Of a stretch of DNA of 64,000 nucleotides, positions 12,305 through 28,290 are shown one piece after another. The translations under genes and the position numbers were made by a program. The number at the start of each line of letters is the position of its first letter. The first letter of the stretch is position 1. This DNA comes from Pontiellaceae bacterium B1224 (GTDB lineage Bacteria > Verrucomicrobiota > Kiritimatiellia > Kiritimatiellales > Pontiellaceae): NCBI GenBank assembly GCA_029432815.1, contig JAROBA010000006.1, forward strand, positions 1 to 64,000, written 5' to 3'. A model generated the notes under the pieces. It had not been told where the DNA came from. It did not search any database and saw only the letters and a list, made by a program, of their open reading frames with translations.

Positions 12305-12331
12305 TCAAAAAACGTCCGCGCAGGCGGACTA
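12305..12331 (-). terminator. intrinsic terminator overlapping the peroxiredoxin stop
   Basis: On the minus strand GTCCGC-CTGC-GCGGAC followed by GTTTTTTG begins within the TAG stop codon of the peroxiredoxin gene. Confidence 0.8.
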
Positions 12332-12979
12332 TTTTTCCAGCGGCTTGTGGCAGAACCACCAGTCGAAGCCGTCGAATTTTTCCATGCGCTGGGCGGCATC
12401 GTCCATATTGTTGGCCGGCGGAATAATGATCCGGTCACCAATCAGCTCGTTGTCGGGCCAGCCGGCAGCGACGGCACCCTGCACATCAGCAATCTGCAGA
12501 GCTTTCACGGCACGAACCACTTCGTCCATATTGCGGCCGACTTCCTGCGGGTAATACATGATCAGACGCACTTTGCTTTCCGGATCGACAATAAAGACTG
12601 CGCGCACCGTGTTGGTGCCTTTGCCCGGATGCAGCATGCCCAGCTTCAGCGCCACCGCATCGTTGGCGGCCACAATCGGAAACTGGATGTCCACCTTCAG
12701 CTCGTCTTTGATCCACTGCACCCACTTGATATGCGAGAACACCTGGTCAATCGACATACCGATCAGCTTGCAACCGAGTTCCTCAAACTGATCAAAGCGC
12801 TTCTGAAAGGCCACGAATTCCGTGGTGCACACCGGCGTGAAATCGGCCGGATGGCTGAACAGGACAAACCATTGCCCTTTCAGATCGCCCGGAATATTCA
12901 TCGGCCCGTGCGTGGTCTGGACCTTCAGCTCAGGAAATTCATCGCCGAGCAACGGCATATTTACTTTTGTTTCTTCCAT
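12329..12979 (-). CDS. 1-Cys/Prx6-type peroxiredoxin
   Basis: A 216-residue thiol peroxidase that reduces hydrogen peroxide and organic peroxides in the cytoplasm. The peroxidatic cysteine is C51 in [12 protein letters not shown]. The Prx6 C-terminal domain is present, ending in FDWWFCHKP, where C210 can act as resolving cysteine as in archaeal enzymes. Length agrees with the Prx6 class. It lies 24 bases after a NifX-like gene in a long minus-strand run, so it probably shares a transcript with the oxidoreductase-transporter genes upstream. Confidence 0.94.
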
Positions 12980-13003: not shown

Positions 13004-13342
13004 TTAATGATCGCAGGCGTTGGTGCCTGTTTCCAATGATCCACTCAGATAGGCTGCGATTAGCTTTTCGGGCGTTTCAGACGGCGCGCCGACAATGACG
13101 TCGATATTCTGCGCATTAAACAGCGACTGTGCACGCTGTCCCATGCCCCCGGCGATAATCAGGTTTACACCGCGCTCGCCCAGAAATTTCGGCAACAGTC
13201 CCGGTTCGTGAGGAGGGGCATCGATTTCCGTCGTGGCGGTGATAGTAATGGTGGCAGGATCTACCTCCACCAACGTGAAGGCGGCGCAATGGCCGAAGTG
13301 CATGTTGAGTTTTCCGTCTGCAGTTGGGATAGCAATTTTCAT
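13004..13342 (-). CDS. NifX/NifB-type dinitrogenase-cofactor-family protein
   Basis: A 112-residue small domain: MKIAIPTADGKLNMHFGHCAAFTLVEV at the start, then GVNLIIAGGMGQRAQSLFNAQNIDV. This is the NifX/NafY/VnfX and NifB C-terminal fold that binds iron-sulfur or FeMo cofactor precursors. The His and Cys in NMHFGHC are typical ligands. No nitrogenase genes are in the window, and such proteins are common in anaerobes without nitrogen fixation, so cluster trafficking is the safer reading. Two more family members lie at 21732 and 22480. Confidence 0.9.
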   Translation of the reverse strand: MKIAIPTADGKLNMHFGHCAAFTLVEVDPATITITATTEIDAPPHEPGLLPKFLGERGVNLIIAGGMGQRAQSLFNAQNIDVIVGAPSETPEKLIAAYLSGSLETGTNACDH

Positions 13343-13366: not shown

Positions 13367-15037
13367 TTATTTAACGATTTTTTCAAACGGCCACATCAGA
13401 ATGCCGCCGTCCATCACTTTGACATCGGTGAACCCGGCCTGCTTCAGGATCAGGGCGGCTTCATAGCCGCGCAGCGAGATCTTGCAGAAAGCAACAACCG
13501 GTTTAGTTTTATCGAGTTCCGCCATACGGCTCCGAACCGCACCCAGCGGAATGCTCACGGTCCCTTCGATCCGCATCTGTTCGACTTCTTCCGGCGAGCG
13601 GACATCGAGGAACGTGAAGTCCTGACCTTCTTCCAGCATGGCATGAACCTCCGTGGGCGTGACGCCTTCCATAAAGCCGTCGATTTTGTTCCGCAGAATA
13701 TTGGCGGCGACCAGGATATTATCCACAGCCGGGGAGAACGGCGGCGCGTACGAGAGGTCGAGATGAGCCAGCTGATCGACGGTCATCCCGGCGGAAAGGG
13801 CTGTGGCGGCAATATCAATGCGCCGATCTGCTTCCCCGGAGCCGGTGGCCTGCATGCCGAGAAACTTGCGCGTGGTGCGATCGGCAATCAGTTTCAGGAA
13901 CAGCGGCTTTGCGGTCGGCATGAAATGCGGCTTGTCGGGCGAGGGCGCCAGGCAGGTGACCACATCATAGCCGGCGTCACGCGCTTCCTTTTCCCCCAAC
14001 CCGGTGCGGGCCACAGTGAAGTCGAAGATCTTGCAGATGGCGCTGCCGAGGACTCCGGGGAAGGCGTCGTTCACGCCGCAGATGGCATTGGCCGCAACAC
14101 GCCCTTCTTTATTGGCGGTGGATCCGAGCGGCACATAGCACGGTTTGCCGGTAACAATGTTTTTCTTTTCGGCACAGTCGCCGACGGCGAAGATGTCGGG
14201 GTCCGAGGTCTGCATCTGATCGTTCACCGCAATGGCGCGGGTCGGCCCGATTTTCAGTCCGGACTCTTCGGCCAGCTTGGTGGCAGGGCGGATACCAACG
14301 GCCATAATCACCAGATCTGCCGGGAATTCGCCCTGGTCGGTGATGACTTTTTCCACCTTGTCGGTTCCAACAAATTCAGTCACCTTGGTGCCGGTTTGGA
14401 TTTTAACGCCCTTGGCCTCGAAGTGTCCTTCAACCAGTGTCGCCATTTCGGGGTCCATCATCGGCAGAATATGCGGCAGGAACTCAACCACCGTAATGCG
14501 GCATCCCATTTCGTGGAAGGCTTCCGCCACTTCCACGCCAATCAGACCGCCGCCGACAATCACGGCGTTCAGCGCTTTGTGCTCCGCCAGCCGCTCCTTG
14601 ATCGCATCCGCATCGTGGATGTCTTTGAGGTTGAAAATATTTTTCAGCCCGACGCCAGGAATCGGGGGGATGAAGGACGATGCACCGGTGGCAAGCACCA
14701 GTTTGTCGTAGGCAAGCTGCTGCGTTTCTCCATCCTCTTTCCGGATGGCGACGGTTTTATTTTCGCGGTCGATGGCGGTGGCCTCGGTCCGGTTCATCAC
14801 CTGCACATCTTTCACGTTCCGGAAAAAGACGCTGTCGCGCACGGTGCCCACCGGGGTGGCCATGAGTTCCTTCTGATCCTTCACCATGCCTGAAATATAA
14901 TAGGGCAAGCCGCAGCCGGCGTAGGATAGAAACTCTCCCTTTTCAACAACGGTTACTTCGGCATCATCGCAAAGACGGCGAATGCGGGAGGCGGTTTTCG
15001 GTCCAGCGGCCACGCCGCCAATAACAACTACTTTCAT
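13367..15037 (-). CDS. CoA-disulfide reductase-like flavoprotein fused to rhodanese
   Basis: A 556-residue fusion. Residues 1 to about 440 form a pyridine nucleotide-disulfide oxidoreductase with FAD motif VVIGGVAAGPKTASRIRRL and the single active cysteine C42 in SYAGCGLPYYISG. It has an NAD site VIVGGGLIGVEVAEAF and a second FAD motif DIFAVGDCAE. Residues about 455-556 are a rhodanese with catalytic C518 in VVAFCKISLRG. The architecture is that of CoA-disulfide/CoA-persulfide reductases (Cdr/Npsr), which use NAD(P)H to handle CoA-bound sulfane sulfur. Neighbours suggest a redox or sulfur role. The start has AGGAG 8 bases upstream. Confidence 0.92.
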   Translation of the reverse strand: MKVVVIGGVAAGPKTASRIRRLCDDAEVTVVEKGEFLSYAGCGLPYYISGMVKDQKELMATPVGTVRDSVFFRNVKDVQVMNRTEATAIDRENKTVAIRKEDGETQQLAYDKLVLATGASSFIPPIPGVGLKNIFNLKDIHDADAIKERLAEHKALNAVIVGGGLIGVEVAEAFHEMGCRITVVEFLPHILPMMDPEMATLVEGHFEAKGVKIQTGTKVTEFVGTDKVEKVITDQGEFPADLVIMAVGIRPATKLAEESGLKIGPTRAIAVNDQMQTSDPDIFAVGDCAEKKNIVTGKPCYVPLGSTANKEGRVAANAICGVNDAFPGVLGSAICKIFDFTVARTGLGEKEARDAGYDVVTCLAPSPDKPHFMPTAKPLFLKLIADRTTRKFLGMQATGSGEADRRIDIAATALSAGMTVDQLAHLDLSYAPPFSPAVDNILVAANILRNKIDGFMEGVTPTEVHAMLEEGQDFTFLDVRSPEEVEQMRIEGTVSIPLGAVRSRMAELDKTKPVVAFCKISLRGYEAALILKQAGFTDVKVMDGGILMWPFEKIVK

Positions 15038-15052
15038 GAATTGATCTCCTGG

Positions 15053-16402
15053 TTATTTAAAGTTTGTTTCGGCCATATGCCGAATAATTTCTTCCTGTGT
15101 TAAAACATGCGAAGGGACATTCTGCTGATCCAGAACAACGACCTTGTATTCGTGGTTTTGTTTCATCGCGGCCAGCGCTTCTTTCAGCGGGGTTTTGGCC
15201 GAGGCGTAAACGACCGGCTCCAACGCCAGTTCTGAAAGTGCGGTGTTTTGATCGGTTTCATCGGCCAGCGCATCCAGTACGGTGGCGGTGGAAAACATAC
15301 CGGTTGCCTTTTCGTGCTCGTCGAGCACCACAAAGGAATGGATATGCTCCTCGGCCAACAGCCGCAGGGCGTGTTTCAGCGTGTCGCCGATATGCAGCGA
15401 AAAGACGCCTTCCTGCATCAGGTTGCCGACAGTGGCTTCCGGCCCCGGCCCGAAAATTCGATCGGTAAATTTGACGTACCACGCGGCGGCCTGAACCTGA
15501 ATGATGTAGGCCAGCGCAATAATCAGCGCAATATCAGCCCCCTCTTTTCCAAAGGCCGTCATGGCAATCGCCAGCGCGATCGAAAGGTTCCGCATAACTG
15601 TTCCGTAAACGAGGGCAATAGCGTCGCCGCGGTTAAAAAAGAATTTCCCGACGAGCGTACTGATCAGAAAGTTCAGGCCATACAAGGCCAGCAGCGGACC
15701 GATGAGGGTGATGAGTTGTCCCGGATTCGAAGCAATGGACTGCGCCTTCAGGGCCATGGCCACAAAAACAACGCCCAGCACACCCAGCGTAGAGAACGGC
15801 GGGAAGATCGGTTTCAGGTCCTTCTGGTAATGCGCCATGCCGTAGCGTTTGATCAGAACGCGTTGCGTCACATTGCCGAGCACCAGCGGAAGCACCACCA
15901 CCACCATGATCTGTTTAAAGATGTTTGCCATCGGAATTTCAATAACCGTTCCCATCAGCCCTTTGATATAGAGCGGCGTGAGCACCGAACCGATCAGCAG
16001 ACCGAAAACGGTCATCTTCACAGCAGCGGCCATATTTCCGTTCGCCATGCCGGTCCAGGAAATCGTCATTCCGGAGGTCGGCAACAGGCTCGCCAGCAAT
16101 AAACCGAGCGCAATATACGGTGCGTCGGGAAAAGCCCATTTGCCCAGCGCAAATGCAAAGAGCGGAATGATCGTGAAGTTCAGCAGCTGCGTCACCAACT
16201 GCACTTTTCCATCCCCGCCCTCAATCACCTTTTTTAACTGGAGGTTCACCATCATCGGATAAACCATCAGAAAGGTGAGCGGAATAATGAGCTGTTTCAA
16301 CGGCGCGGGATTCCAGGCCAGCCCCGCACCAAACCCCAGCAGCATGATTACAGGAATCGCTACGATGAGCCGTTTTTGAATCTGTTTAATCAGTTTGAGC
16401 AC
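15053..16402 (-). CDS. BASS/ACR3-type transporter with C-terminal CBS pair
   Basis: A 449-residue protein. Residues 1 to about 315 form some ten membrane helices of the bile acid:sodium symporter/arsenite permease superfamily: LLASLLPTSGMTISWTGMAN is the conserved helix-4 region and YGTVMRNLSIALAIAM the helix-9 region. Residues about 325-449 are two CBS motifs (LLAEEHIHSFVVLDEHEKATGMFST and EYKVVVLDQQNVPSHVLTQ), which usually sense adenine nucleotides. The substrate is unknown: arsenite, thiosulfate-like or organic anions are possible. It starts 6 bases after Mrp ends and is followed by the CoA-disulfide reductase 15 bases later, so it is in one operon. Confidence 0.88.
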   Translation of the reverse strand: MLKLIKQIQKRLIVAIPVIMLLGFGAGLAWNPAPLKQLIIPLTFLMVYPMMVNLQLKKVIEGGDGKVQLVTQLLNFTIIPLFAFALGKWAFPDAPYIALGLLLASLLPTSGMTISWTGMANGNMAAAVKMTVFGLLIGSVLTPLYIKGLMGTVIEIPMANIFKQIMVVVVLPLVLGNVTQRVLIKRYGMAHYQKDLKPIFPPFSTLGVLGVVFVAMALKAQSIASNPGQLITLIGPLLALYGLNFLISTLVGKFFFNRGDAIALVYGTVMRNLSIALAIAMTAFGKEGADIALIIALAYIIQVQAAAWYVKFTDRIFGPGPEATVGNLMQEGVFSLHIGDTLKHALRLLAEEHIHSFVVLDEHEKATGMFSTATVLDALADETDQNTALSELALEPVVYASAKTPLKEALAAMKQNHEYKVVVLDQQNVPSHVLTQEEIIRHMAETNFK

Positions 16403-16408
16403 GGGTTC

Positions 16409-17239
16409 TTATTTTCCCGGAAGGGACAGGATCGGTTTGATGATGTCGCGCAGCATGTGCGCGGTTTCGGAGGCACCGTGACTTTGAATAAAAGGCTGTC
16501 CGGAATCGCACGCCTTTCCAATGGCGGGATCGATCGGCAGTTTTCCAAGGAATGGAACGCCGAAATCGGCCGCAATTTTTTCGCCGCCGCCCGAGTGAAA
16601 GATATCCACCACCTCGCCGCATTTCGGGCAGGCAAATCCGCTCATATTTTCCACCACACCGAGCACCGGCATTTCCAGCGTCTCACAGAACTTCATCGAT
16701 TTGCGCACATCCACCGCGGCCACCTGCTGCGGCGTGGTCACAATCACAGCACCGGTCGGCTCTTCAATCAGCTGGCAGATGGAAAGCGGTTCGTCGCCGG
16801 TGCCGGGCGGGCAGTCGATGATCAGATAATCCAGCTCGCCCCACTCCACATCGCCGAGAAACTGTTTGATGACGCCCATCTTCATCGGCCCGCGCCAGAT
16901 GAACGGATTGTCTTCGTCCTGATTCAGGAATCCGACCGACATCACTTTCAGGTTTCCGGCATAAATCGGATCCACGGAATACTCATTGGAAATCAGCGGG
17001 GCGGTCCCGAGGCCGAGCATGGTCGGGATACTCGGGCCGTGGATATCGACATCCAGCAGTCCCACTTTTTTACCGGCATCCGACAGCGCGGTCGCCAGGT
17101 TTACAGCCACAGTGCTTTTGCCCACACCCCCCTTACCGGACAGCACACAGATCTTATGTTTCACCTGCGCCATACGGGCATTAATTTTACGTTGGTCTTC
17201 CACCGGGTCCACTTGCGGCTGCGCTACACATTCACTCAT
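16409..17239 (-). CDS. Mrp/NBP35-type iron-sulfur carrier ATPase
   Basis: A 276-residue P-loop ATPase of the Mrp/Nbp35/ApbC group. It has the deviant Walker [10 protein letters not shown] (residues 35-43), Asp in [23 protein letters not shown] as switch II, and the cluster-binding pair CPKC near residue 200. Such dimers bind a labile 4Fe-4S cluster between CxxC pairs and hand it to apoproteins in the cytoplasm. It lies in the redox operon. An apparent one-mismatch copy of the 15-bp palindrome (16543-16557) falls on the universally conserved PFLGKLP stretch and is likely chance. Confidence 0.94.
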
Positions 17240-17264: not shown

Positions 17265-17344
17265 AGGCAGAATGAATTACGGGCAGAATAATTTTCTGTA
17301 GTGAAGATGCCCCAAACCATTCTGCCCCCAAATTATTCTGCCTT
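17265..17344. repeat. inverted quartet of GGCAGAATnATT units
   Basis: Two units point right (17265-17278 and 17281-17294) and two point left (17315-17329 and 17330-17344). They form a 20-base spaced dyad between the Mrp and metallo-beta-lactamase genes. The outermost left-pointing unit supplies the final Ala-Glu codons and the stop of the upstream gene. I recall similar GGCAGAAT repeats from intergenic regions of other PVC-type genomes, but cannot check. Confidence 0.75.
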
Positions 17345-18175
17345 TAATTTATAGCCGGCGTAGCCGGTTCTGATTTCGCTGTTCAAGTTCTCTTTAAAAT
17401 AGGTAATGGCGGACTCGCCGGTGCAATGGCACGGAACCATGAGTTCGGGATTATAAGTGCGCAGCACATTGGCGGTGGTTTCGAGCCGCTGCTTCGAAGC
17501 ATTTTTCAGATGCAGCCCGCCGACGATTCCCCAAATTCGTTTTTGACCGCTGACTGCCACAATGTGATTCAGCGTATTGATCAATCCCGAATGACAACAG
17601 CCGCACACCACTAACAGCCCTTTCGGTGTTTCAATCCACATCGCCATATCGTCTTCAATCGGATCAGGTATCTTGCCTTCAGGGTCGATGAAAAACGGAC
17701 CGCCGGTATCTTCCAGAGTTTGGAAACGCGGGATCGGGCCGGTCAACCAGACGTTATCTGTAATTTGTTTCGGCTCGCGGATCCAATGCAAGTGCGAGTC
17801 GGGCAGGTTTCCCACAATCAGCCGCTCTTCAGCGGGCATCGAAATCTCTTTAGGGGCCTTGCCCGGATAGATGCTGAAGCGCTGGCTGAAAATTTTTGGG
17901 TGGGCATAGACCGCAACCTCGGGATTTTCCTGCAGCACAAAGTCCACTGCCCCGGTGTGGTCATAGTGCCCGTGGCTCAGCGCAAAGGCATCGATATGCA
18001 TCAGGTTCACTCCCAACGCCTTCGTGTTCTGTTCCAGCGCATCGTTCTGTCCCGCATCGAACAGTAGCTTTTTTCCGCCTACGTTGATCAGCATTGAAAG
18101 CCCATGCTCGGCCACAAGCCCGCCGGTCGCCTGGTTATCCACCAGAATTTCCAATGATTGGAACTCCGCACTCAT
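17333..18175 (-). CDS. metallo-beta-lactamase-fold hydrolase
   Basis: A 280-residue protein of the MBL subgroup related to archaeal ribofuranosyl-aminobenzene phosphate synthase-like enzymes. The metal motif HGHYDH is at residues 68-73. Further ligand segments are VVCGCCHSG and PCHCTGE near the end. Substrate unknown. It is the last gene of a chain of overlapping genes (18172-21616). Two exact palindromes lie in it: 18149-18163 as FQSLE at residues 5-9, and 17711-17725 as FQTLE at 151-155, the second inside an otherwise conserved IPR...E segment. The stop codon sits inside a GGCAGAAT repeat. Confidence 0.9.
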   Translation of the reverse strand: MSAEFQSLEILVDNQATGGLVAEHGLSMLINVGGKKLLFDAGQNDALEQNTKALGVNLMHIDAFALSHGHYDHTGAVDFVLQENPEVAVYAHPKIFSQRFSIYPGKAPKEISMPAEERLIVGNLPDSHLHWIREPKQITDNVWLTGPIPRFQTLEDTGGPFFIDPEGKIPDPIEDDMAMWIETPKGLLVVCGCCHSGLINTLNHIVAVSGQKRIWGIVGGLHLKNASKQRLETTANVLRTYNPELMVPCHCTGESAITYFKENLNSEIRTGYAGYKLKAE

Positions 18176-18573
18176 GCCACCTCTCCTGTTTGCATAAAAC
18201 GAGCCTCACCCCGCGCCATGGTTTTTCCGTTCATAAGAATACTGGCCTTGAGCCGGTACAGCGGCGGGCGGCTTTCCTCCAGCACCGCCTGCACATCCAC
18301 CTGCTCTCCAACCGGGACCAAATGCTTATAGCGAATCCGCAGATCCGCCGTTACCGCCCGGATACCCTCGTGAAAAAGGCAGTTGGTCATCGCCGAATCC
18401 AGCAGCGAAGCAATAATACCCCCGTGCAGAATGCCATCATAGCCCTGCAGATCCGGCCTTCCCTTGAAGAGGGCTCCAACGCCTCCTCCATCACGTCGCG
18501 TAAATTTCAACCGCAGCGAACTCGGGTTGCGGTCGCCGCACAGCAAGCAATTCCGATGTTCATTTTCAGGCAT
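18172..18573 (-). CDS. PaaI-type hotdog thioesterase
   Basis: A 133-residue single hotdog domain: GYDGILHGGIIASLLDSAMTNCLF is the PaaI helix motif with HGG, followed by LRIRYKHLVPVGEQVDVQAV. Members hydrolyse acyl-CoA thioesters. The N-terminus has two cysteines in CLLCGD. It overlaps the MBL gene by 4 bases and the NifU-like gene by 8 bases, so it is translationally coupled within the iron-sulfur cluster operon. Its substrate cannot be read from sequence. Confidence 0.9.
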   Translation of the reverse strand: MPENEHRNCLLCGDRNPSSLRLKFTRRDGGGVGALFKGRPDLQGYDGILHGGIIASLLDSAMTNCLFHEGIRAVTADLRIRYKHLVPVGEQVDVQAVLEESRPPLYRLKASILMNGKTMARGEARFMQTGEVA

Positions 18574-18988
18574 GGGGCCGCTCCCGGTTTATGAGCCTTT
18601 TCAACTGCTCGCTGAGGGAAATTTTTTCCGGCGGGTTCAGATAGTTTTCCGCCGCCAGCGCAACCGTATGGGCGGCCAGCAACGCGCAGTGCACATGATC
18701 CTCCGGCAGCGGGCCGGTGGCTTCGAGCACTTGCGCCTGGGTCATGGCTTTGGCCTGATCCGGCGTCATGCCTTCCGCGAGCTGCACTGCTTCATTGCAA
18801 CAGTGTTTAGAAAAGCCGCAACCGTTGGTAATGAACGTTCCGCTGCGGATCTTGCCGCCATCGATTCGCAGCCAGATTTCAACAATGTCACCGCACGTGC
18901 CGTGTACCTTGGCATAGCCGTTGGCATCGCGCATCGGACCGAAGCGCTTGGCGCGTGCTTCGATGGCCGCTAGTGCATCTTCGAACAT
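18566..18988 (-). CDS. NifU/IscU-like iron-sulfur scaffold
   Basis: A protein of about 140 residues with the three cluster cysteines of the IscU/NifU N-domain arranged as HGTCGD, NGCGFSKHCC and HCALLA. I choose the ATG at 18988 (MFEDALAAI) because GGAG stands 6 bases before it; a GTG 12 bases further up is the alternative. It overlaps the end of the MinD-like ATPase gene by 19 bases. This branch is common beside MinD-ferredoxin ATPases in anaerobes and may build or carry clusters, but it has no IscS partner here. Confidence 0.88.
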   Translation of the reverse strand: MFEDALAAIEARAKRFGPMRDANGYAKVHGTCGDIVEIWLRIDGGKIRSGTFITNGCGFSKHCCNEAVQLAEGMTPDQAKAMTQAQVLEATGPLPEDHVHCALLAAHTVALAAENYLNPPEKISLSEQLKRLINRERPHA

Positions 18989-19827
18989 ATTCCACTCCAC
19001 ATGTCCCGCACCGCCTGTGCGGCCTCGCCCGCGGATTCTTCGACCAATGCCCGGGCATTCACCTGTGCAGCCGTCACCGCCGCGTCATAGGGAATACGGC
19101 CCACCGGTGCAGCGCCGAATTCCTTTGCCAGATCCTCAATCCGATCCGTCATCACCGGATTAATGTCCCACTTGTTCACGCAGACCATCGCCGGAATTTT
19201 AAAGTGAGCCGCCAGTTCCAATACGCGGTGCAAATCGTGCTCCCCGGAGAGCGTTGGCTCGGAGACGACCAGCACGGCATCGGCGCCCGTAATGGAAGCG
19301 ATAACCGGACAACCGATGCCGGGAGGTCCATCTACCAGAAGAAATTCGCTGTTCTGCTGCGCGGCCATCTTCCGCGCTTCCTGACGCACCAGACTCACCA
19401 GTTTGCCGGAATTCTCCGCACCGGGATTCATGTGCGCATGAACCATCGGCCCATGCCTTGTGGTGGAGATGTTCCAAACCCCGCAATCCTGCTCCGGGAA
19501 ATCAATCGCACCAACCGGACAAAATTCAACACATGCGCCGCACCCCTCGCAGCTGAGCGGATCGACCGTGAAATCGGCAATCGCATCGAACCGGCAGACT
19601 TCTTCGCACAAACCGCACTGTGTACAATCAGCGGCACGGATCTCAGCGGCGCGGCCGCTCGTGAAGGTTTCCGAAGTCTGGATGGTCGGTTCCAGCACCA
19701 AATGCAGGTCGGCCGCATCGACATCGCAGTCGGCCAAAGTCGACGTTTCGGCCAGCGCGGCCAACGAAGCCGTAATGCTTGTTTTTCCCGTCCCGCCTTT
19801 TCCACTAATAATTACGAGTTCTTTCAT
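18970..19827 (-). CDS. MinD-superfamily ATPase with inserted ferredoxin domain (copy 2)
   Basis: A 285-residue P-loop ATPase. The Walker A is ISGKGGTGKTS (residues 7-17). Two 4Fe-4S ferredoxin motifs are inserted after strand 2: CTQCGLCEEVC and CEGCGACVEFCPVGAI. Switch II is LLVDGPPGIGCPV and the C-terminal part is that of MinD/ParA. Such proteins couple ATP hydrolysis to an electron or cluster transfer step that is still undefined. It overlaps its paralogue (19824-20696) by 4 bases. The two probably act as a heterodimer, because both keep their own ferredoxin insert and are always found in tandem in related loci. Confidence 0.92.
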   Translation of the reverse strand: MKELVIISGKGGTGKTSITASLAALAETSTLADCDVDAADLHLVLEPTIQTSETFTSGRAAEIRAADCTQCGLCEEVCRFDAIADFTVDPLSCEGCGACVEFCPVGAIDFPEQDCGVWNISTTRHGPMVHAHMNPGAENSGKLVSLVRQEARKMAAQQNSEFLLVDGPPGIGCPVIASITGADAVLVVSEPTLSGEHDLHRVLELAAHFKIPAMVCVNKWDINPVMTDRIEDLAKEFGAAPVGRIPYDAAVTAAQVNARALVEESAGEAAQAVRDMWSGICSKMH

Positions 19828-20696
19828 ACCAAAACCCCTTGCCCTTCATGTACCGGGCGGCCTTCTGCTAATTTTTGCAATTGTTCGGGTATTGAAACGA
19901 GCGCGTCGCTCAGCTCGGGCATCACTTTGTTCAGGGCCTGCCCGCGGGAATAGGCTTGAGCCACCCGGCGGTCTTCCGGAATCTGGAGCAGCAGCGGAAT
20001 GCCTTCGGCCTCGCAGTATTCGCTGATCGGGTTTTTCTCCCCGTTGGCGCGATTCACCGCCACACCGAACGGAATGCCCAGTTCACGGATCGTATCAACC
20101 GCCAGCTTCAAATCATGCAAACCGAAGGGCGTCGGCTCCGTAACCAGCAACGCGGCATCGCAGCCTTTCACTGCTGTGACATACGGACACGATGTGCCCG
20201 GCGGGCAATCGACAATGGTCAGCCCATCTTCCGACGCATATTTCAGCGTCTCGCGAATCACCGGCGGCGACATCGCCTGCCCGACGTCCAGCTTGCCCGA
20301 TATAAAGCGAATCGAGCCTTTCTTTCCAACCGTCAGCATTCCGGTTTTTTTCTCTACTTCCGTAATCGCACCTTCCGGGCAGATCCGGGCGCAGGCTCCA
20401 CAGCTGTGGCACAGCTCGCTGAAAACCATCGTCTTTTTGCCCATCGAAATAATGGCACTGAACTGGCAGACCCGGGCGCACTCGCCGCAACCGGTGCATT
20501 TTTCTGTATCGACTTCCGGCACCAGACTGAAGGTCTTTTCCATGCGTTCGATGGTGGGTTGAATAAAGAAATGACTGTTCGGCTCTTCGACATCGCAGTC
20601 GAGCAGCGTCACCTCGCCCGGCACCGCCAGCGCGAGTGCGCAGGAGATGGTCGTTTTTCCGGTGCCGCCTTTTCCTGAGGCGATGGCAATTTTCAT
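19824..20696 (-). CDS. MinD-superfamily ATPase with inserted ferredoxin domain (copy 1)
   Basis: A 290-residue paralogue of the next gene. The start is the ATG at 20696 (MKIAIASGKGGTGKT); a longer in-frame reading upstream is only overlap with the DUF89 gene. Two 4Fe-4S motifs, CTGCGECARVCQF and CHSCGACARICPEGAI, follow residue 60. Switch II is TIVDCPPGTSCP. It overlaps the DUF89 gene by 4 bases (ATGA) and copy 2 by 4 bases. Predicted role is ATP-dependent metallocluster or electron transfer in the cytoplasm, inferred from the family. Confidence 0.92.
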   Translation of the reverse strand: MKIAIASGKGGTGKTTISCALALAVPGEVTLLDCDVEEPNSHFFIQPTIERMEKTFSLVPEVDTEKCTGCGECARVCQFSAIISMGKKTMVFSELCHSCGACARICPEGAITEVEKKTGMLTVGKKGSIRFISGKLDVGQAMSPPVIRETLKYASEDGLTIVDCPPGTSCPYVTAVKGCDAALLVTEPTPFGLHDLKLAVDTIRELGIPFGVAVNRANGEKNPISEYCEAEGIPLLLQIPEDRRVAQAYSRGQALNKVMPELSDALVSIPEQLQKLAEGRPVHEGQGVLV

Positions 20697-21616
20697 GATA
20701 GGGCTCCTTTGGGTCCAAGGTCTGACATTGACTTTTGACCTTGGACATTCCGACTTTCGACGACATGCTCTTTGACGACCCAACTGCCGACCGGTTCGCC
20801 GAGATCTCTTCCAATGACTGGACATTTTACGCGGGTCAGAAAAAAGAGCGGACGCGAGCAGCTGCTGAGCGATTCATAGTTGGCCTGCCCTTTGGCAATC
20901 ACCAGATCGGCTTCATTGAAGAGTTGGCGGAATGCATCCGAACAATCGTCCAGAATGGTGCCCGGTGCATCGGACCCGTTTTCAACCAGCTTCGCGACCG
21001 TATCGAGCCCGGCTGCCTCGGCATCGGCCAGCGTGGCATCGTTGATGACCGGTGCACCTTTAACCGCATAGAAAATTTCTGCGTCGCCGAGCTGTTCGAT
21101 CAGCAGCTTGTCAAAAACCGTTTCGCCGGCATTGTCGCCCAGCACCAGAATCGAGCGCGCGTTTTTAACTGCGGCCCGCAGTTGTTCAACCGGTTTTTTT
21201 TCCAAGGCCTGGAAACACGTGTCTTCGATAAAAGAATCGAGCGCAAGCTGACTCCATTTCGTAGTCAGCGCGAAATCCATAATGTTTCCGGCAATGGAAA
21301 AGCGCAACGCCATCTGAAATGGATTGATCGAAGCCTTGATTACGCCGCGCGCCTCCTCGGCCAGCTCCAGCGCCAACCGGGTCGACTCCGCTTTAATTTC
21401 GGCATAAGGATCCGGATTGCCCGTCTCTTCACGAATGATACGATGCGTAATCTGCGCCATAACCGGAGGCGTTTCGCTCAGCGGAAATTCCGCCGCCTCA
21501 CGCATCACCCGTTGCAGGGTCCGGTGAACCAGCGCTTCATCATCTTTTGTAACCTGCCGCAACGCATCGTGCGCCTGCCGGACAAAACATGGAATACAGT
21601 CTGTGTAACTTTGCAT
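20693..21616 (-). CDS. DUF89/ARMT1-type metal-dependent phosphatase
   Basis: A 307-residue protein of the DUF89 damage-control phosphatase family. The Cys motif TDCIPCFVRQA is at the N-terminus. The metal-binding signature LGDNAGETVFDKLL (around residues 159-172) is followed by VIAKGQANYE. Family members remove phosphate from damaged or overflow sugar phosphates. The ATG at 21616 is preferred over a TTG two codons earlier. Its C-terminal 20 residues come from an intergenic-type repeat (20713-20760) that contributes the stop and the next gene's overlap. An exact palindrome at 21200-21214 is read as FQALE. Confidence 0.9.
   Translation of the reverse strand: MQSYTDCIPCFVRQAHDALRQVTKDDEALVHRTLQRVMREAAEFPLSETPPVMAQITHRIIREETGNPDPYAEIKAESTRLALELAEEARGVIKASINPFQMALRFSIAGNIMDFALTTKWSQLALDSFIEDTCFQALEKKPVEQLRAAVKNARSILVLGDNAGETVFDKLLIEQLGDAEIFYAVKGAPVINDATLADAEAAGLDTVAKLVENGSDAPGTILDDCSDAFRQLFNEADLVIAKGQANYESLSSCSRPLFFLTRVKCPVIGRDLGEPVGSWVVKEHVVESRNVQGQKSMSDLGPKGALS
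20713..20746. repeat. inverted repeat at the DUF89 gene's 3' end
   Basis: Perfect 10-base arms GTCCAAGGTC (20713-20722) and GACCTTGGAC (20737-20746). The surrounding GTCGAAAGTC/AAAAGTCA words match the intergenic repeat on the other side of the gene (21630-21715). Confidence 0.7.
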
Positions 21617-21629
21617 AATCAATTCTCTG

Positions 21630-21715
21630 TCGAAGGTCTATGGGTCAAAAGTCGAAGGTCCTAAGACAACATATCGGAGACTTTTAACCTTCGACCTTTT
21701 AGACATTCGACTACT
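21630..21715. repeat. GTCGAAGGTC-type intergenic inverted repeat
   Basis: Two direct TCGAAGGTC words (21630-21638, 21652-21660) face ACCTTCGAC (21687-21695) and ATTCGACTAC. The structure fills the gap between the DUF89 gene and the NifX-like gene upstream of it. It has no T-run. Confidence 0.65.
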
Positions 21716-21731
21716 TGCTCAGCACTTCTGC

Positions 21732-22094
21732 CTAAACCCAATGCCCTTCAACGTTTGCTTTTTCGACGGGGGTCAGCTCATTTTTTTTCAACAGATCCAG
21801 TGCGTGGGCAATGGTGCAGTCGGAACAGATATAAACCTTGATTTTCGCGGCATCCAATACCGCGAAAGCCTTCGGTCCGCAGTTGCCGGTAATTACAGCA
21901 TCTACCTTTGCATTGGCCAGGTGCATGGCCGACTGAATGCCCGCGCCCTGCGCCGCATTGAGGTTCTGTGTGTTTTCTTTAATCGTGAATGCACCGGTTT
22001 TTGAATAATAGATCAAAAAATGCGGTGCACGCCCGAAGCGCGAATCGACCATGGCATCAAGGTCATGTCCAGCCGTTGTAATTGCAATTTCCAT
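21732..22094 (-). CDS. NifX/NifB-type cofactor-family protein
   Basis: A 120-residue NifX-fold protein: MEIAITTAGHDLDAMVDSRF is the typical start with the DSRFGRAPHF signature. The rest includes VDAVITGNCGPKAFAVLDAA, where the Cys sits in the usual GNCGPKA turn. Expected to bind an iron-sulfur cofactor precursor or act as chaperone for one. It stands between a DUF5320 protein and the DUF89-MinD operon, an arrangement seen in many strict anaerobes without nitrogenase. Confidence 0.92.
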   Translation of the reverse strand: MEIAITTAGHDLDAMVDSRFGRAPHFLIYYSKTGAFTIKENTQNLNAAQGAGIQSAMHLANAKVDAVITGNCGPKAFAVLDAAKIKVYICSDCTIAHALDLLKKNELTPVEKANVEGHWV

Positions 22095-22173: not shown

Positions 22174-22464
22174 TTAGTTAGCTTTCTTTGCTCCGAGTTT
22201 CGCGAGCTGCTGTTCGAGCGATGCAACCTGCAGGTTGAGATCATCGATCTTTTCCTGCAGCAGCATGGCATCGGACGAAGCCACGGCATGCTGAGCATGA
22301 TTGCGGAAATATCCCTGCGGACGACCGCCGCAACGATTCCCACGTCCCATTCCACGGCCACCGGCACTCTGCCGGCCCGCCGTTGCATTTCCTGCGCATT
22401 TTCCAGCGCCTCTTCCTGTCATTGGTCCGGCTCCAACCGGCCCTGTTCCATTTCCATTTGGCAT
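22174..22464 (-). CDS. DUF5320-type protein
   Basis: A 96-residue protein with the hallmark DUF5320 start, MPNGNGTGPVGAGPMTGRGA. A Gly/Arg/Cys-rich segment follows, then a C-terminal coiled coil of about 30 residues (LLQEKIDDLNLQVASLEQQL). Function is unknown. These proteins are regular neighbours of NifX-like and MinD-ferredoxin genes in anaerobes. The coiled coil suggests oligomerisation or a docking role. Confidence 0.85.
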   Translation of the reverse strand: MPNGNGTGPVGAGPMTGRGAGKCAGNATAGRQSAGGRGMGRGNRCGGRPQGYFRNHAQHAVASSDAMLLQEKIDDLNLQVASLEQQLAKLGAKKAN

Positions 22465-22479
22465 CCTATGCCTCCTTGA

Positions 22480-22839
22480 TTATTTACATTGTCCTTTTCT
22501 GCGCCGACAGTGACGGCATCCGGGCATGGAGTAGCAGGCTTCGTCTAACGTGCCGTCTCTCCAGGCGCTCCAGACTTCCTCGATCTCGCCGGAAACAAAG
22601 GGATTGATGCGAATGCCGAGCATTTCAGCGTATTCGCGCATCCGTCGGGTAATGGCTCCGCAGATCAAAACATGGATTCCCTGCTCGGTCAGAAAGACCA
22701 GCTTGCTTCGCGGGTCTAAGGTGGGTAACGCGGCGGTTTCCAACATTTCTCCGGACTTCGTTTCAAAAATTAAAACGGTACCGGCCACATCAAAAACCGG
22801 AGCAACCCGGCCCTGCCATTCTGTAATTGCAACTTTCAT
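22480..22839 (-). CDS. NifX-like protein with Cys-rich tail
   Basis: A 119-residue NifX-fold protein: MKVAITEWQGRVAPVFDVAG is the PVFD-type start of one branch of the family, and HVLICGAITRRMREYAEMLG the middle. The end, CYSMPGCRHCRRRKGQCK, adds four cysteines that could bind a metal or cluster. It is the first gene of the NifX-DUF5320-MinD run as transcribed. A candidate sigma-54 promoter lies directly in front (22853-22868). Confidence 0.9.
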   Translation of the reverse strand: MKVAITEWQGRVAPVFDVAGTVLIFETKSGEMLETAALPTLDPRSKLVFLTEQGIHVLICGAITRRMREYAEMLGIRINPFVSGEIEEVWSAWRDGTLDEACYSMPGCRHCRRRKGQCK

Positions 22840-22852
22840 TGAGTAGCCCTAA

Positions 22853-22868
22853 TGCACAAAGGGTGCCA
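22853..22868 (-). promoter_or_regulatory. candidate sigma-54 promoter
   Basis: Minus-strand TGGCACCCTTTGTGCA has the -24 GG and the -12 GC exactly ten bases apart, as in the TGGCAC-N5-TTGC consensus (one mismatch at the -12 element). It lies just upstream of the NifX-like gene and next to a sigma-54 activator gene. The weak point is distance: transcription would start only a few bases before the ATG at 22839. Confidence 0.5.
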
Positions 22869-23150: not shown

Positions 23151-24497
23151 CTACGACTTCGGTAGCTGCAACCCCAACGCCTTGATTTTACGGTAGAGGG
23201 TGGTTTTATGGATGCCGAGCTCGCGCGCAGTGGCGAGGCGGTTGAAGTTGTTTTTTTCCAAGGTCTGGAAAATCGCCTGCGCTTCGGCGGAGCGGCGGGC
23301 GGTTCCAATGTCTGGAACTTTTGTATCGTGCTGGGCCGGAGCAGAACCGTGCAGCTCCTGCGGTAAATGACGGATTTCAATGGTTGATCCGTTACAGAGC
23401 ACAAAGGCGCGCTCAATCATATTTTCCAGTTCGCGGACGTTGCCGGGCCAGTCGTGCCCCATCAGCAACGAGTTGGCCCCGACAGAAAGACCTTCAATGC
23501 TTTTATCATGCAGACGGTTGAAGCGCTCGATGAAATGATTTACCAGCAACGGGAGATCTTCTTTCCGGTCGCGCAACGGTGGAAGGTCGATCCGGATCAC
23601 ATTAACACGATAGAAAAGATCTTCGCGGAAATCGCCGGATGCAACCAGTGCAGATAGATCGCGGTGAGTGGCGGCAATAATCCGGGCTTCAGAGCGGCGG
23701 GTTTCGTTGCTGCCGAGCGGCTCGTAGGTACGTTCCTGCAAAACGCGCAACAGGCGAACCTGCACAGCCGGGCTGATTTCACCGATTTCATCAAGAAAGA
23801 TGGTGCCGTTTTTTGCCTGTGCAAAGCGTCCCTCCCGATCCTGAATGGCGCCGGTGAACGCGCCCTTTTTATAGCCGAACAGCTCGGATTCAAGCAGGGT
23901 GTCGGGCAGTGCGGCGCAGTTGATGGCCACAAATGGTTTCCCGACTCTGGAACTCATACCGTGGATCGCTCGGGCCAATAGTTCTTTTCCGGTTCCGGTT
24001 TCGCCGTGAATGAGGGCGGTAATATCTGAATGGGCCACCGAAGAAGTCATTTCGAAAACCGGTTGCATGGCGCGACTGTGGCTGACGAGGTCGCCGAGCG
24101 TGTATTGACCGGAAACCTGTTTGCGCAGCGTTTCAAGTTCGCTGAGATCGCGGAAGGTTTCGACGCCTCCGATTACCTTGCCGCTATTATCTTTGAGCAC
24201 GCCCGTGGAAACGCTGGCTGGAATCCGCTCGCCTTCGGCATTCACCAGATAGCACGGATGCGCAATCATCGGCTGTCCGGTTTCGAGCGTTTTTCGCAAT
24301 GCGCAGGCCGCCTCGCACATATTCGAGCGGAAGACTTCGGAACAGGGATGCCCTATGGCCTCCTCGCGCGGAACGCCGGTAATTTTTTCGGCGGCACGAT
24401 TGAACGACGTGATGCACCAATCGTCGTCGACGGTGAAAACGCCGTCTGAAATACTTTCGAGGATGGCCTCGGTTGTGGCTGGAGAATCCGTGCTCAT
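23151..24497 (-). CDS. sigma-54-dependent activator with PAS sensor
   Basis: A 448-residue bacterial enhancer-binding protein. An N-terminal PAS domain (residues about 10-120) carries several cysteines, including C61 and C65 in SNMCEAACALRKTL, suggesting redox or cluster sensing. The AAA+ domain has Walker A GETGTGK (165-171) and the sigma-54 contact loop GAFTGA (212-217). A Fis-type HTH closes the protein. Two exact palindromes lie near the end: 23256-23270 as FQTLE (residues 410-414) and 23303-23317 as PDIG. It most likely controls the NifX/MinD operon next to it. Confidence 0.94.
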   Translation of the reverse strand: MSTDSPATTEAILESISDGVFTVDDDWCITSFNRAAEKITGVPREEAIGHPCSEVFRSNMCEAACALRKTLETGQPMIAHPCYLVNAEGERIPASVSTGVLKDNSGKVIGGVETFRDLSELETLRKQVSGQYTLGDLVSHSRAMQPVFEMTSSVAHSDITALIHGETGTGKELLARAIHGMSSRVGKPFVAINCAALPDTLLESELFGYKKGAFTGAIQDREGRFAQAKNGTIFLDEIGEISPAVQVRLLRVLQERTYEPLGSNETRRSEARIIAATHRDLSALVASGDFREDLFYRVNVIRIDLPPLRDRKEDLPLLVNHFIERFNRLHDKSIEGLSVGANSLLMGHDWPGNVRELENMIERAFVLCNGSTIEIRHLPQELHGSAPAQHDTKVPDIGTARRSAEAQAIFQTLEKNNFNRLATARELGIHKTTLYRKIKALGLQLPKS

Positions 24498-24664: not shown

Positions 24665-25627
24665 TTATGTTGTCGCGATTTCGAGGCCGAGGGACTGGAT
24701 CATTTCCAGATCGGACTCATATTGCGAGCCGGCGACGGTGAGGTAGTTGCCGGTCATCATGCCGTTGGCGCCGGCGGAAAACAGGTCGGCCTGGCGATCG
24801 CCAAGAATATGCGAGCGACCGCCGCAGATGCGCAGGGTGACCTTCGGCAGGAGATAGCGATAGACCGCGATAATTTTCAGCGCTTCTTCGGCGGAAAGCG
24901 GCTCCTGATCCTTCAACGGCGTTCCGGGATGCGCATAAAGAAAGTTGATCGGCACACTGTCGACCCCGAGTTCGCGCAAAGCAATCGCCAGATCAATCCG
25001 GTCTTCCCAGCTTTCGCCCATTCCAAAGAGACCGCCGCTGCAGACTTTCAGTCCGGCGGCCTGCGCGGCTTTGACTGTGGCAAGCCGTTCCGACCAATCC
25101 TGCGTGGTGCAGACCTCGGAATAAAAATGTTCCGACGCTTCCAGATTGTGGTGAAACCGGGTCACACCCGATTCTTTGAGCATCGCCAAATCCTCAGGTG
25201 TCAACCGACCGAGCGATCCACAGACCGGTGCTTCTTCACCGCCGCCGATTTTTTCAACGGTATCGGCGAGTTTCCGAAGTTCGGAAGAAGAAAGCTTTCC
25301 CCCGCTCGTCACGACGCCGCATTTTCGGTCACCGTCTTTAATGTCTCTGCGGATCTGATTTTCCAATGTCTGGGAATCCATGAAGGGATAGACTTCGATT
25401 TCGGTGGAGTTGTGCCCGCTCTGGGAGCAGAACCGGCAGTCCATATCGCACTTACCGCTCTTGGCATTAATGATCGAACAAAGTTCAATCTGCGATCCGA
25501 AAAAAGCTTCGCGAATTTTTTTGGCCCCGGCCAGCAACTCAGTTTCACAACAGTTCACCAGCTCTTGCGCGTCTTTTTTCGAGCAGCCGATTCCGGCAAT
25601 ACATTTCGTTGTAATGGTTTCGAGCAT
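24665..25627 (-). CDS. bioB: biotin synthase
   Basis: A 320-residue radical SAM enzyme that inserts sulfur into dethiobiotin. The SAM-cluster motif is CDMDCRFC (C60, C64, C67). The second-cluster ligands follow in the usual places, as CGVVTSGGK, CGSLG and CSGGLFGMGE. No other bio gene is in the window. The E. coli-type enzyme is longer at the C-terminus; this form matches shorter anaerobe versions. A one-mismatch palindrome (25371-25385) is read as SQTLE. No biotin operator or riboswitch is visible. Confidence 0.93.
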   Translation of the reverse strand: MLETITTKCIAGIGCSKKDAQELVNCCETELLAGAKKIREAFFGSQIELCSIINAKSGKCDMDCRFCSQSGHNSTEIEVYPFMDSQTLENQIRRDIKDGDRKCGVVTSGGKLSSSELRKLADTVEKIGGGEEAPVCGSLGRLTPEDLAMLKESGVTRFHHNLEASEHFYSEVCTTQDWSERLATVKAAQAAGLKVCSGGLFGMGESWEDRIDLAIALRELGVDSVPINFLYAHPGTPLKDQEPLSAEEALKIIAVYRYLLPKVTLRICGGRSHILGDRQADLFSAGANGMMTGNYLTVAGSQYESDLEMIQSLGLEIATT

Positions 25628-25758: not shown

Positions 25759-28290
25759 TTACGCTTCCAACGGCGCCGACACCACAACTTCTGTTCCTTC
25801 ACCGGGAGTGGATTCAATCTCCAGGCTTCCGCCGTTGTGCTGGATATTTTCGCGAATACTGAAAAGTCCAAAACCACCCGATGGAGAAAAACCTTTTCCG
25901 GCCAAAGAAGCGTCAAATCCCTGACCATCGTCTTTCACACTGATCCGCACATTGCCATTCACCCGTTTCAGTGCCACTTGCGCGCTCTTGGCATCGGAAT
26001 GCCTCATGACATTGGTCAGCAGTTCCCGCACGGATCGGAAAAGCACGACTTTCCGGTCAAACGGCAGCGGTAATAATTTCGTTTCTCCACTGAACTCAAA
26101 GCGGGTTGTATGCTTTCCGGTCATGCTTGAACACAGTTCCTCCAAAGCAGAGGCCAGTCCCAGTTCTGTCAGCATGGGGCAGCTAAGATCGAACGTGAGC
26201 GCACGGATCTGCTGCAGGGATTCATGCAGAATGTTGCTAATCTTATCGAGCGATTTGATTGTTTCCTCTGGCAGAGCGGTTTCCTTAAGCGCTCCGAGCT
26301 GAATATAGGATGAACTCAGAAACTGGCTTACGCCATCATGCAACTGGGCGGTAATCTGCTGCCGCTCATGTTGCCCGGCCAGGGACAGTTCGGAGGCCAG
26401 ATGCCGTAGTTCTTCCCGGTTGAGATTGATTTCTTCCTCACGGGCCACCCGTTGAGAGATATCGCGGACTACGCCGCAGACTACCGGACGCCCTTTCCAG
26501 GAAAAAGAGCAGGGGGTAATTTCGACAGGAAAGACCGAACCGTCTTTCTTTCGGTGCCGGCTCTTGAGCATGCCTATAGACTTCCCTGCCAACACTTCCG
26601 GAATGGCTCGATCCGCCACATCCGGCTCGACGGAGATTTCCCTATGCGTGAGATCCAGAAATTCCTCACGCGAATGGCCGTAAAGCTCCACCGCTGCGTT
26701 GTTCACATCAATAAACCGTCGGCTCTTGGCATCAAAAATTATAATGGCATCGGACTCCGACTCGAAAACCAGACGGTATTTTTCTTCGCTTTCCTTTTGT
26801 GCCTGCTCGGCTTTTTTCTGCGCGGCGATGAAGCGCGCCTGCTGCATATTCTGGTAAGCGGAGGTTGAAAGTTGTTTGGCCAGTGTGAAGAGGGCTTGCG
26901 CAATCTCTTCAAAGTGTTTACGCGACATGGTTGGAACGCGGTGGAATGCCTCCAGAATTGCCTGTTCATCGGCTCCGATCTCCCGAGCATAGGCGCATAC
27001 CTGTTCATCGGTCTGATTTTCGTCGCGTACCTGCCCGACCAGCCAGTTGGCAATGTGCCGCCCCCCGACTTCAATCGTGGCCCCGGCATCCCACAACCCG
27101 GCGCTCAGACAAACCTGGATATTCGGACCTTCGGGCTCATGCTGCACCCCGATTTGGGCATCCGATTTCATGCAGTTGGCACATCCCTTTTCAGTTCCTC
27201 GAATGATCTTTGAGCAAAAATCGGTAAAATTACTCGGTTTAGTGATCGGACTTCCATCCGGGTGGGTAATAAGCGAGGCCACTCCGGTCGCTCGGGCAAA
27301 CTCATCCTGTATTCGCTGGATATCTTCGAAGTTAAAAAGATCCTCAAATGAAACGGAACCTATCCCGTCGAGCGGTTGCGTCAGGGCCAGAACTCGTTTT
27401 TCCAATGCTTTCCGCAAGCGCTGGCGTTCGGTGATATCGCGAACGTGACCAATCAGATACTGCTTACCGTCGAGAACGATCCGAAAAGCTTTCATATCTG
27501 CATAAAAGACTTCGCCGTTACTGCGTAGAAACGGGATATCGTAGACTTCGTCAACCTCCCCTCGTGCTTGTTTTTCAAACGATTCTATCACGTACGGTAG
27601 ATCTTCTGCGGGATGGATACCCTCGGATCCAATCTCAATGACTTCTTTCTCGCTATAACCCAGCAGGGTGCAGATGGCTTTGCTTGCCATACGGAATTTT
27701 CTTGTTTCGGGGTCGGCCAGCAGAATTCCGTCAGGGACCTCGTCGAAGATTCTTCTGAAACGTTCTTCGCTCTCGCGCTGGGTTTTTTCAACTATCTTGT
27801 GTTGCGTCCGATCCCGGGCAGAACACATATAAACGGGTTTACCATTCACAACAAGGGGTACGGCAGTGACCTCGACAATCAACGCGGTCCCATCGCTGTG
27901 AAGCAGATTATATTCAATTGGCGTAAGCGTTTCTCCCTTCCGGAGTTTATCCATCCGCTTCACTGCGATTTCGCGGGCGGCAGGCGGAAAAATTCCGCAT
28001 TCAAAAACGCTTTGGCCCTTCAGTTCCTCACAGCGATAGCCGGTCAGCTTTTCCACCGCCATGTTGCCATCAATAAAACGACTGTCGGTGTCGAGCAGGA
28101 AACAGGCATCCGATGTTTCTTCGAACAGCATGCGGAAACGCTCCTCGGATTCGCGAAGAGCAATGGTTTGTATCTTGAGACGCCGCTCCAGTTCAAGATT
28201 GAGTGCGGAGACTTCTTCAAGAGTGCTGTCTTCCGGTTCATCCCTCGCCTGGTTCAGCTCTGAAGAGCTTTCTGGTTTCTTGCTGGACAT
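25759..28290 (-). CDS. PAS/PocR sensor histidine kinase (NarX/DegS type)
   Basis: An 843-residue soluble kinase without membrane helices. Order: coiled start, PAS 1 (about 45-160), PAS 2 (about 170-290), a PocR ligand domain (about 300-480; FEDLFNFEDIQRIQDEFARA, CANCMKSD), then PAS 3 (about 500-620). A HisKA_3 domain with phospho-accepting His in ITAQLHDGVSQFLSS and an HATPase_c domain (DDGQGFDAS, GFGLFSIREN) finish it. PocR domains are thought to bind small organic ligands. The kinase is a shorter paralogue of the one at 30091. The only NarL-type regulator nearby is at 29445. Confidence 0.92.
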   Translation of the reverse strand: MSSKKPESSSELNQARDEPEDSTLEEVSALNLELERRLKIQTIALRESEERFRMLFEETSDACFLLDTDSRFIDGNMAVEKLTGYRCEELKGQSVFECGIFPPAAREIAVKRMDKLRKGETLTPIEYNLLHSDGTALIVEVTAVPLVVNGKPVYMCSARDRTQHKIVEKTQRESEERFRRIFDEVPDGILLADPETRKFRMASKAICTLLGYSEKEVIEIGSEGIHPAEDLPYVIESFEKQARGEVDEVYDIPFLRSNGEVFYADMKAFRIVLDGKQYLIGHVRDITERQRLRKALEKRVLALTQPLDGIGSVSFEDLFNFEDIQRIQDEFARATGVASLITHPDGSPITKPSNFTDFCSKIIRGTEKGCANCMKSDAQIGVQHEPEGPNIQVCLSAGLWDAGATIEVGGRHIANWLVGQVRDENQTDEQVCAYAREIGADEQAILEAFHRVPTMSRKHFEEIAQALFTLAKQLSTSAYQNMQQARFIAAQKKAEQAQKESEEKYRLVFESESDAIIIFDAKSRRFIDVNNAAVELYGHSREEFLDLTHREISVEPDVADRAIPEVLAGKSIGMLKSRHRKKDGSVFPVEITPCSFSWKGRPVVCGVVRDISQRVAREEEINLNREELRHLASELSLAGQHERQQITAQLHDGVSQFLSSSYIQLGALKETALPEETIKSLDKISNILHESLQQIRALTFDLSCPMLTELGLASALEELCSSMTGKHTTRFEFSGETKLLPLPFDRKVVLFRSVRELLTNVMRHSDAKSAQVALKRVNGNVRISVKDDGQGFDASLAGKGFSPSGGFGLFSIRENIQHNGGSLEIESTPGEGTEVVVSAPLEA

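Follow-up and report, generated by a model that had tools for sequence, protein, structure and literature searches.

Results

The window analysed here is the whole of a 64,000-nucleotide stretch of DNA from Pontiellaceae bacterium B1224 (GenBank assembly GCA_029432815.1, contig JAROBA010000006.1, positions 1 to 64,000). The element in question is a set of six overlapping genes on its minus strand (17333-21616), which encode a DUF89 protein, two MinD-ferredoxin ATPases, a protein with a NifU_N domain, a 4HBT/PaaI-like protein and an MBL-fold hydrolase. An earlier note on this DNA had described these six families, their coordinates and overlaps of 4 to 19 bases, and domain matches and open reading frame positions confirmed all of these. 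The two NifX-like proteins (22839-22480 and 22094-21732) and the DUF5320 protein (22464-22174) that it had placed just upstream are also real. Successive genes of the set overlap by 4, 4, 19, 8 and 4 bases, suggesting that the six are co-translated. Because a curated domain was assigned to every open reading frame and another member of the genus (locus L162) shows the six genes in identical order, the arrangement is not a product of chance.

Although its genes were correct, the extent of six genes proposed earlier was too small. The set forms the middle of a co-directional run of about 14 genes on the minus strand, from 22839 down to 12329, in which the largest gap is at most 115 bases; an activator and a promoter upstream, and the genes from Mrp to a peroxiredoxin downstream, had been omitted. 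The core had also been left unnamed. Consisting of the MinD-ferredoxin pair, NifX-like proteins, an Mrp/NBP35 protein and a sigma-54 activator, it matches the orange protein (ORP) complex described in Desulfovibrio (PMC6345978, PMC3897727) and, judged from its genes, is an ORP system. The features are given below, with the genes of the run, from NifX-like protein a to the peroxiredoxin, in their order on the minus strand.

23151..24497, minus strand: sigma-54 dependent activator, PAS-AAA+-Fis, counterpart of D. vulgaris DVU2106 (PF00158, E 6e-69; PAS; HTH_8); like position in many loci
22853..22868, minus strand: sigma-54 promoter TGGCACCCTTTGTGCA, 10/11 consensus positions, GG-N10-GC
22480..22839, minus strand: NifX-like protein a, first gene of the unit (PF02579); activator-associated across loci
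22174..22464, minus strand: DUF5320 protein (PF17253); present in 45/96 loci
21732..22094, minus strand: NifX-like protein b, ORP-like (PF02579, E 8e-21; D. gigas ORP structure 2WFB, E 4e-14)
20693..21616, minus strand: predicted DUF89/ARMT1-like metal-dependent phosphatase (PF01937, E 1e-63; PDB 2FFJ and 2G8L, E 2e-40)
19824..20696, minus strand: MinD-ferredoxin ATPase 1, Orp3/Orp4 type (CbiA, deviant Walker A, two 4Fe-4S motifs, Cys170 in switch II)
18970..19827, minus strand: MinD-ferredoxin ATPase 2 (CbiA, two 4Fe-4S motifs, Cys173 in switch II)
18566..18988, minus strand: NifU/IscU-like scaffold with Cys32, Asp34, Cys57 and Cys101 (PF01592, NifU_N, E 2e-13; PDB 7C8M, E 8e-14)
18172..18573, minus strand: predicted PaaI-like hotdog thioesterase, THEM4-like (PF03061, 4HBT, E 2e-8)
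17333..18175, minus strand: MBL-fold hydrolase (PF00753, E 6e-10), related to PDB 2P4Z (E 3e-35) and TM1679/3H3E (E 8e-33)
16409..17239, minus strand: Mrp/NBP35 Fe-S carrier, ATPase half of MrpORP (NF041136 MrpORP, E 9e-115, positions 1-250)
15053..16402, minus strand: SBF/ACR3-like permease with two CBS domains (PF01758, PF00571; TIGR00832, E 2e-22, below cut-off)
13367..15037, minus strand: coenzyme A (CoA)-disulfide reductase-like flavoprotein with C-terminal rhodanese (domain matches)
13004..13342, minus strand: NifX-like protein c, C-terminal half of MrpORP (NF041136, E 5e-37, positions 265-365)
12329..12979, minus strand: peroxiredoxin, last gene of the run (PF00578)
12314..12329, minus strand: hairpin resembling a terminator, with T-run, behind the stop codon of the peroxiredoxin, where its position fits

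In D. vulgaris, the ORP complex comprises Orp3 and Orp4 (MinD-type proteins with two ferredoxin 4Fe-4S motifs each), Orp5, Orp8 and Orp9, the last being MrpORP; Orp8 belongs to the NifX family and is a relative of proteins that hold a Mo-Cu sulfide cluster (PMC6345978, PMC3897727). Its genes (DVU2103-DVU2109) lie in two divergent sigma-54 operons with the activator DVU2106 (PMC6345978, PMC3897727). The window has in common with this system two MinD-type ATPases with two 4Fe-4S motifs each, a single-domain ORP/NifX-like protein (the 2WFB match), an Mrp carrier with a Di-Nase partner domain, and a sigma-54 promoter with its activator. It differs in having one co-directional run instead of two divergent operons, a matter of arrangement and not of essential function, and in carrying as separate genes the Mrp ATPase and the Di-Nase domain that are fused in Desulfovibrio MrpORP. 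These two genes, encoding Mrp and NifX-like protein c, correspond to the beginning and the end of the NCBIfam MrpORP model and are a single fused gene in L162. Since the MinD pair, the 2WFB match and both parts of the MrpORP model fit, we read the locus as an orp locus with a split MrpORP in one unit. Compared with Desulfovibrio orp, it adds the NifU-like scaffold, DUF89, PaaI, MBL, DUF5320, the permease and the CoA-disulfide reductase with rhodanese. We conclude that the locus extends the known ORP system rather than founding a separate one, and that it is real and recurrent.

The sigma-54 site lies directly before NifX-like protein a, behind the gene of the PAS-AAA+-Fis activator. Comparable sites were present in 13/16 activator-linked loci versus 11/361 control upstream regions, and in the loci surveyed NifX-like protein a was associated with the activator (Fisher p 3e-9). 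At the other end of the run, terminator-like hairpins were no commoner than in shuffled sequences, and what fits in the hairpin after the peroxiredoxin is its position. Three Cys of the activator's PAS domain (52, 61 and 65) recur in 17-18 of 19 linked activators and form a possible metal or Fe-S sensing site.

The NifU-like protein has three Cys and one Asp as ligands in 29/29 homologues and shares with IscU/NifU scaffolds (PDB 7C8M, 4EB5) the three ligand Cys and the Cys-Gly-Asp motif. Unlike these, it belongs to a divergent subgroup that goes with the MinD pair and in some cases is joined to Mrp in one protein, and no cysteine desulfurase adjoins it. Our survey across phyla took the best 80 matches, many of them on short contigs, so its counts are rough frequencies; the NifU-like gene adjoined the MinD pair in 23/80 of these loci. 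It was also associated with Mrp across loci (Fisher p 0.001), and NifU+Mrp fusions occurred in L021, L024, L040 and L119, which represent several phyla. The maturation factors of the ORP complex have been described as unknown, with MrpORP as the proposed one, and MrpORP transfers clusters to the Orp3-Orp4-Orp8 complex in Desulfovibrio (PMC6345978). Given this transfer, the conserved ligands and the association and fusion with Mrp, we infer a route from the NifU-like protein through Mrp to the MinD-ferredoxins. A predicted Fe-S supply by the NifU-like protein is the best-supported new element of the locus.

Beside the eight ferredoxin Cys, the MinD-ferredoxins contain a ninth invariant Cys at Walker-B Asp+7 (123/123), a position held by Asp in 52/52 Mrp and similar proteins. 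After removal of the ferredoxin insertion, this residue (Cys170 in MinD-ferredoxin 1, Cys173 in MinD-ferredoxin 2) aligns with the Cys of the GDVVC motif, a cluster ligand of NifH, and by analogy it may ligate a cluster in the MinD-ferredoxins as well. Both proteins also share the deviant Walker A with NifH. They differ from it in forming a heteromeric pair, in an inserted two-cluster ferredoxin module that replaces the other cluster-ligand region of NifH (the Cys97 region), and in being without the nitrogenase partner that NifH has. In L032-L034, MinD1 and MinD2 are fused. A link to nitrogen fixation was considered and rejected: within the phylum, four genomes had both nifH and the pair, 12 had the pair without nifH and seven had nifH (over cut-off) without the pair. 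The window's own genome contains nifH (G000:C135).

The folds of the proteins are settled by the sequence evidence, and the three hydrolases retain their catalytic motifs. The DUF89 protein has the conserved motifs DN, ND and KGQ-N with the Asp/Asn of the metal site, and has the whole domain and the metal-site motifs in common with the ARMT1-like damage-control phosphatases (2FFJ, 2G8L); in PANK4, the DUF89 domain acts on 4'-phosphopantetheine. Unlike the damage-control phosphatases, the linked DUF89s form a group of their own and score under the NCBIfam equivalog cut-offs. A tree with six unlinked DUF89s from the window's phylum set the pair-adjoining DUF89s apart from these (SH-aLRT 100); the pair-adjoining ones came from Planctomycetota, Spirochaetota, Acidobacteriota, Omnitrophota, Bacillota, Thermodesulfobacteriota, Bipolaricaulota and one methanophagal archaeon. 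Three unlinked rows fell within the linked group, namely L115, where DUF89 adjoins PaaI and NifX, and two short contigs from pair-carrying genomes. Elsewhere, DUF89s of the group adjoin Nudix (L142, with a 4-base overlap), a Nudix-PanD fusion (L147), YggS-like Ala_racemase_N (L101, L144, L145), MBL (L139, L145), PaaI (L024, L115) and ArsP_2 exporters (L136, L137).

A hairpin-forming repeat, GACCTTCGACTTTTGACC, precedes DUF89 (21617-21731) and has three exact copies in the genome. A stretch resembling it (20693-20760) encodes the extra C-terminal residues of DUF89, about 20 in number, which we rejected as part of the enzyme as they are absent in 27 homologues. We found nothing relevant in the published literature on DUF5320, or on DUF89 with MinD or NifX.

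The PaaI-like protein contains the active-site motif HGG...D (HGGIIASLLD), with Gly51, Gly52 and Asp59 invariant in 12 homologues. Three hotdog proteins, those of L053 and L114 plus an additional one of L040, belong to a different subfamily (YGG, not HGG), and the count of PaaI in 8/96 loci therefore contains two unlike the window's type. In the MBL protein, HxHxDH and further His/Cys are invariant (His68, His70, Asp72, His73, His195, His222 and His250 in 35 homologues). It matches Tflp (2P4Z) and TM1679 (3H3E) over the full length, with HxHxDH and the conserved His/Cys, and differs from them in operon context; neither structure record names a function. MBL and NifX are fused in L028. Mini-clusters of NifX-PaaI-DUF89 (L115, 8873-10237) and NifX-PaaI (L134, 8772-9678) occur in genomes where the MinD pair was not found, and because of these the hotdog protein may partner NifX and not the ATPases.

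Linkage of the additional families to the pair was assessed in four independent ways: by the fusions and trees, by genome-wide counts, which cover 115 genomes of the window's phylum (MBL at E 1e-10, PaaI at E 1e-20), and by distance. The MinD pair was present in 16/115 genomes. An MBL relative was found in 15/16 genomes with the pair versus 10/99 without (Fisher p 2e-11), DUF89 in 12/16 versus 26/99 (Fisher p 3e-4) and PaaI in 6/16 versus 1/99 (Fisher p 2e-5); these p-values overstate independence because the genomes are related. Across phyla, genes of the NifU-like, MBL, DUF89 and PaaI families concentrate near the pair, at distances of up to about 5 kb. Between distances below 2.5 kb and those of 5-7.5 kb (96 loci), the density per 100 kb fell from 3.9 to 0.4 for DUF89, from 4.8 to 0.75 for MBL and from 7.0 to 0.4 for the NifU-like gene, which is about a six- to twentyfold drop. 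The counts and the decay with distance reject neighbourhood noise as the source of the co-occurrence. In the 80 loci across phyla, the NifU-like gene was found in 23, MBL in 15, DUF89 in 11 and PaaI in 4.

It could be argued that the three hydrolases have no metabolic relation to the rest and travel along as passengers, retained through operon expression in suitable anaerobic conditions, as their presence is patchy across loci and the same families also lie far from the pair in other genomes. The enrichment near the pair in many phyla, the co-occurrence within the phylum, the grouping of linked DUF89s and the MBL+NifX fusion speak against this, and we regard it as very improbable. DUF89, PaaI and MBL, termed unexpected partners in the earlier note, are instead genuine ones: they are statistically linked, one of them is fused, and their order is conserved in the genus. 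That note had also held that genomes in which the families are not linked beyond the MinD pair and NifX would speak against its proposal, and here the survey is divided: linkage is not universal, yet it lies far above chance.

The exact order DUF89-MinD1-MinD2-NifU-PaaI-MBL occurred in the window, L162 and L164, all of one genus, and the overlaps in L162 are 4, 4, 16, 8 and 4 bases. Other members of the genus are without PaaI, DUF89, MBL or Mrp at the locus, and L163 has a NifX-NifU-PaaI-Mrp-NifX-MBL group without the MinD pair, which the same genome has elsewhere. The tight overlaps, the order conserved in three genomes and the persistence of the PaaI-NifX(-DUF89) mini-clusters without the pair could indicate that the locus synthesises a small metallocofactor, linked to sulfur or CoA, and that DUF89, PaaI and MBL carry out steps of this biosynthesis. 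However, beside one and the same core the hydrolases occur singly, paired or not at all, no ligase or synthase is common to the loci, and the ORP cluster so far known is inorganic (PMC6345978), all of which makes such a pathway quite unlikely. The earlier suggestion that the set might make or repair such a cofactor is thus not supported in its first half, dedicated synthesis. Repair fits better, because DUF89 has the fold of damage-control phosphatases and in other loci neighbours Nudix, Nudix-PanD, YggS-like and PaaI genes.

Further genes recur beside the pair in the 96 loci: a radical SAM protein beginning YGPVPSRRLG (21 loci), DUF134 (14), a SAM methyltransferase (10), Fur family (9), FeoB (6) and DUF364 heavy-metal chelation proteins (5). 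A membrane protein of about 226 amino acids without Pfam match lies near the pair on the same strand in five loci (e.g. L032, 5060-5740). The window's permease is kept in L019, L170 and L172.

Some of these genes bear on an alternative in which the locus handles metals or metalloids (thio-oxyanions): NifX-like proteins would bind a metal or thiometallate, the ACR3-like permease would export it and the thiol enzymes would mend collateral damage. Consistent with this, the permease with its CBS domains and the CoA-disulfide reductase with rhodanese lie within the unit, related DUF89s adjoin the ArsP_2 heavy-metal exporters, DUF364 proteins occur in several loci, and Fur and FeoB homologues recur near the pair. 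The permease, however, was detected by its model in 1/96 surveyed loci, plus genus members, and scores under the ACR3 cut-off, and the NifU-like, Mrp and MinD-ferredoxin genes indicate assembly and not export. We consider metal handling an unlikely main role.

Upstream of the activator gene lies a bioB-type radical SAM gene (24665-25627; TIGR00433 over cut-off), found in the same or a near place in six genus members, and also upstream, on the same strand, a histidine kinase that combines a PocR sensory domain with three PAS domains (25759-28290). Between MBL and Mrp, a palindromic repeat, GGCAGAAT (17281-17342), folds better than shuffled sequences (z -3); the genome contains one further occurrence of a similar pattern.

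Discussion

Our data indicate that the window probably carries an expanded orp locus of about 14 genes under sigma-54 control as one unit, in which a NifU-like/Mrp Fe-S supply would serve a MinD-ferredoxin/NifX machine and the hydrolases would act in clean-up. This supports the earlier view that the genes have to do with assembling metal-sulfur clusters or delivering electrons. The NifU-like protein would assemble Fe-S clusters and pass them to Mrp/NBP35, which would load the MinD-ferredoxins, as shown by others for Desulfovibrio MrpORP. The MinD-ferredoxins would then act as an ATP-driven, NifH-like pair that delivers electrons or a cluster to NifX-like proteins holding a metal-sulfide cluster. 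In the last and weakest step, DUF89, PaaI, MBL and the CoA-disulfide reductase/rhodanese may make up an optional set that clears away phosphorylated, thioester or thiol metabolites, probably of CoA type, that are damaged or trapped by sulfide, persulfide or metal chemistry. We favour clean-up over cofactor synthesis because of the neighbours of the DUF89 group and the CoA-disulfide reductase/rhodanese in the window.

Several observations weigh against this interpretation. None of the four extra families was present in 41/80 loci across phyla, which makes them optional, and the loci are phylogenetically clumped, with many short contigs. Outside the window's phylum, the pairwise association of the hydrolases is weak (DUF89-MBL p 0.2). 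The window's DUF89 scored 172 bits, compared with a cut-off of 440 for the NCBIfam equivalog NF040824, and a related DUF89 lies away from the pair in many pair-carrying genomes; linked and unlinked MBL rows are intermixed in part of the MBL tree. The substrates of DUF89, PaaI and MBL and the single transcription unit are predictions, and the likeness to NifH is supported at one residue position.

A more far-reaching version of the expanded orp locus is conceivable, though we hold it with considerable doubt. In it, the MinD-ferredoxins would form a heteromeric reductase that resembles NifH, is driven by ATP and has a cluster or a pair of thiols at its interface (Cys170/Cys173), with a dedicated NifU-Mrp relay feeding it. 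A metabolite-repair set (the ORP-associated DUF89 group, PaaI and MBL) would have spread with this reductase in bacteria and archaea, guarding thiols of CoA type against the chemistry of metal sulfides.

Three points stand out as the strongest new ones: a NifU-like scaffold dedicated to the system, a DUF89 group associated with ORP and accompanied by MBL and PaaI, and the Cys at the NifH position. The ORP complex is widespread in anaerobes, and descriptions of it have so far centred on its colour and on cell division, in which a role has been proposed for it. The NifU-like gene and the NifU+Mrp fusions name a testable scaffold for ORP maturation, and the recurrent DUF89, MBL and PaaI genes, together with the NifH-like Cys, provide concrete handles on the ORP system.

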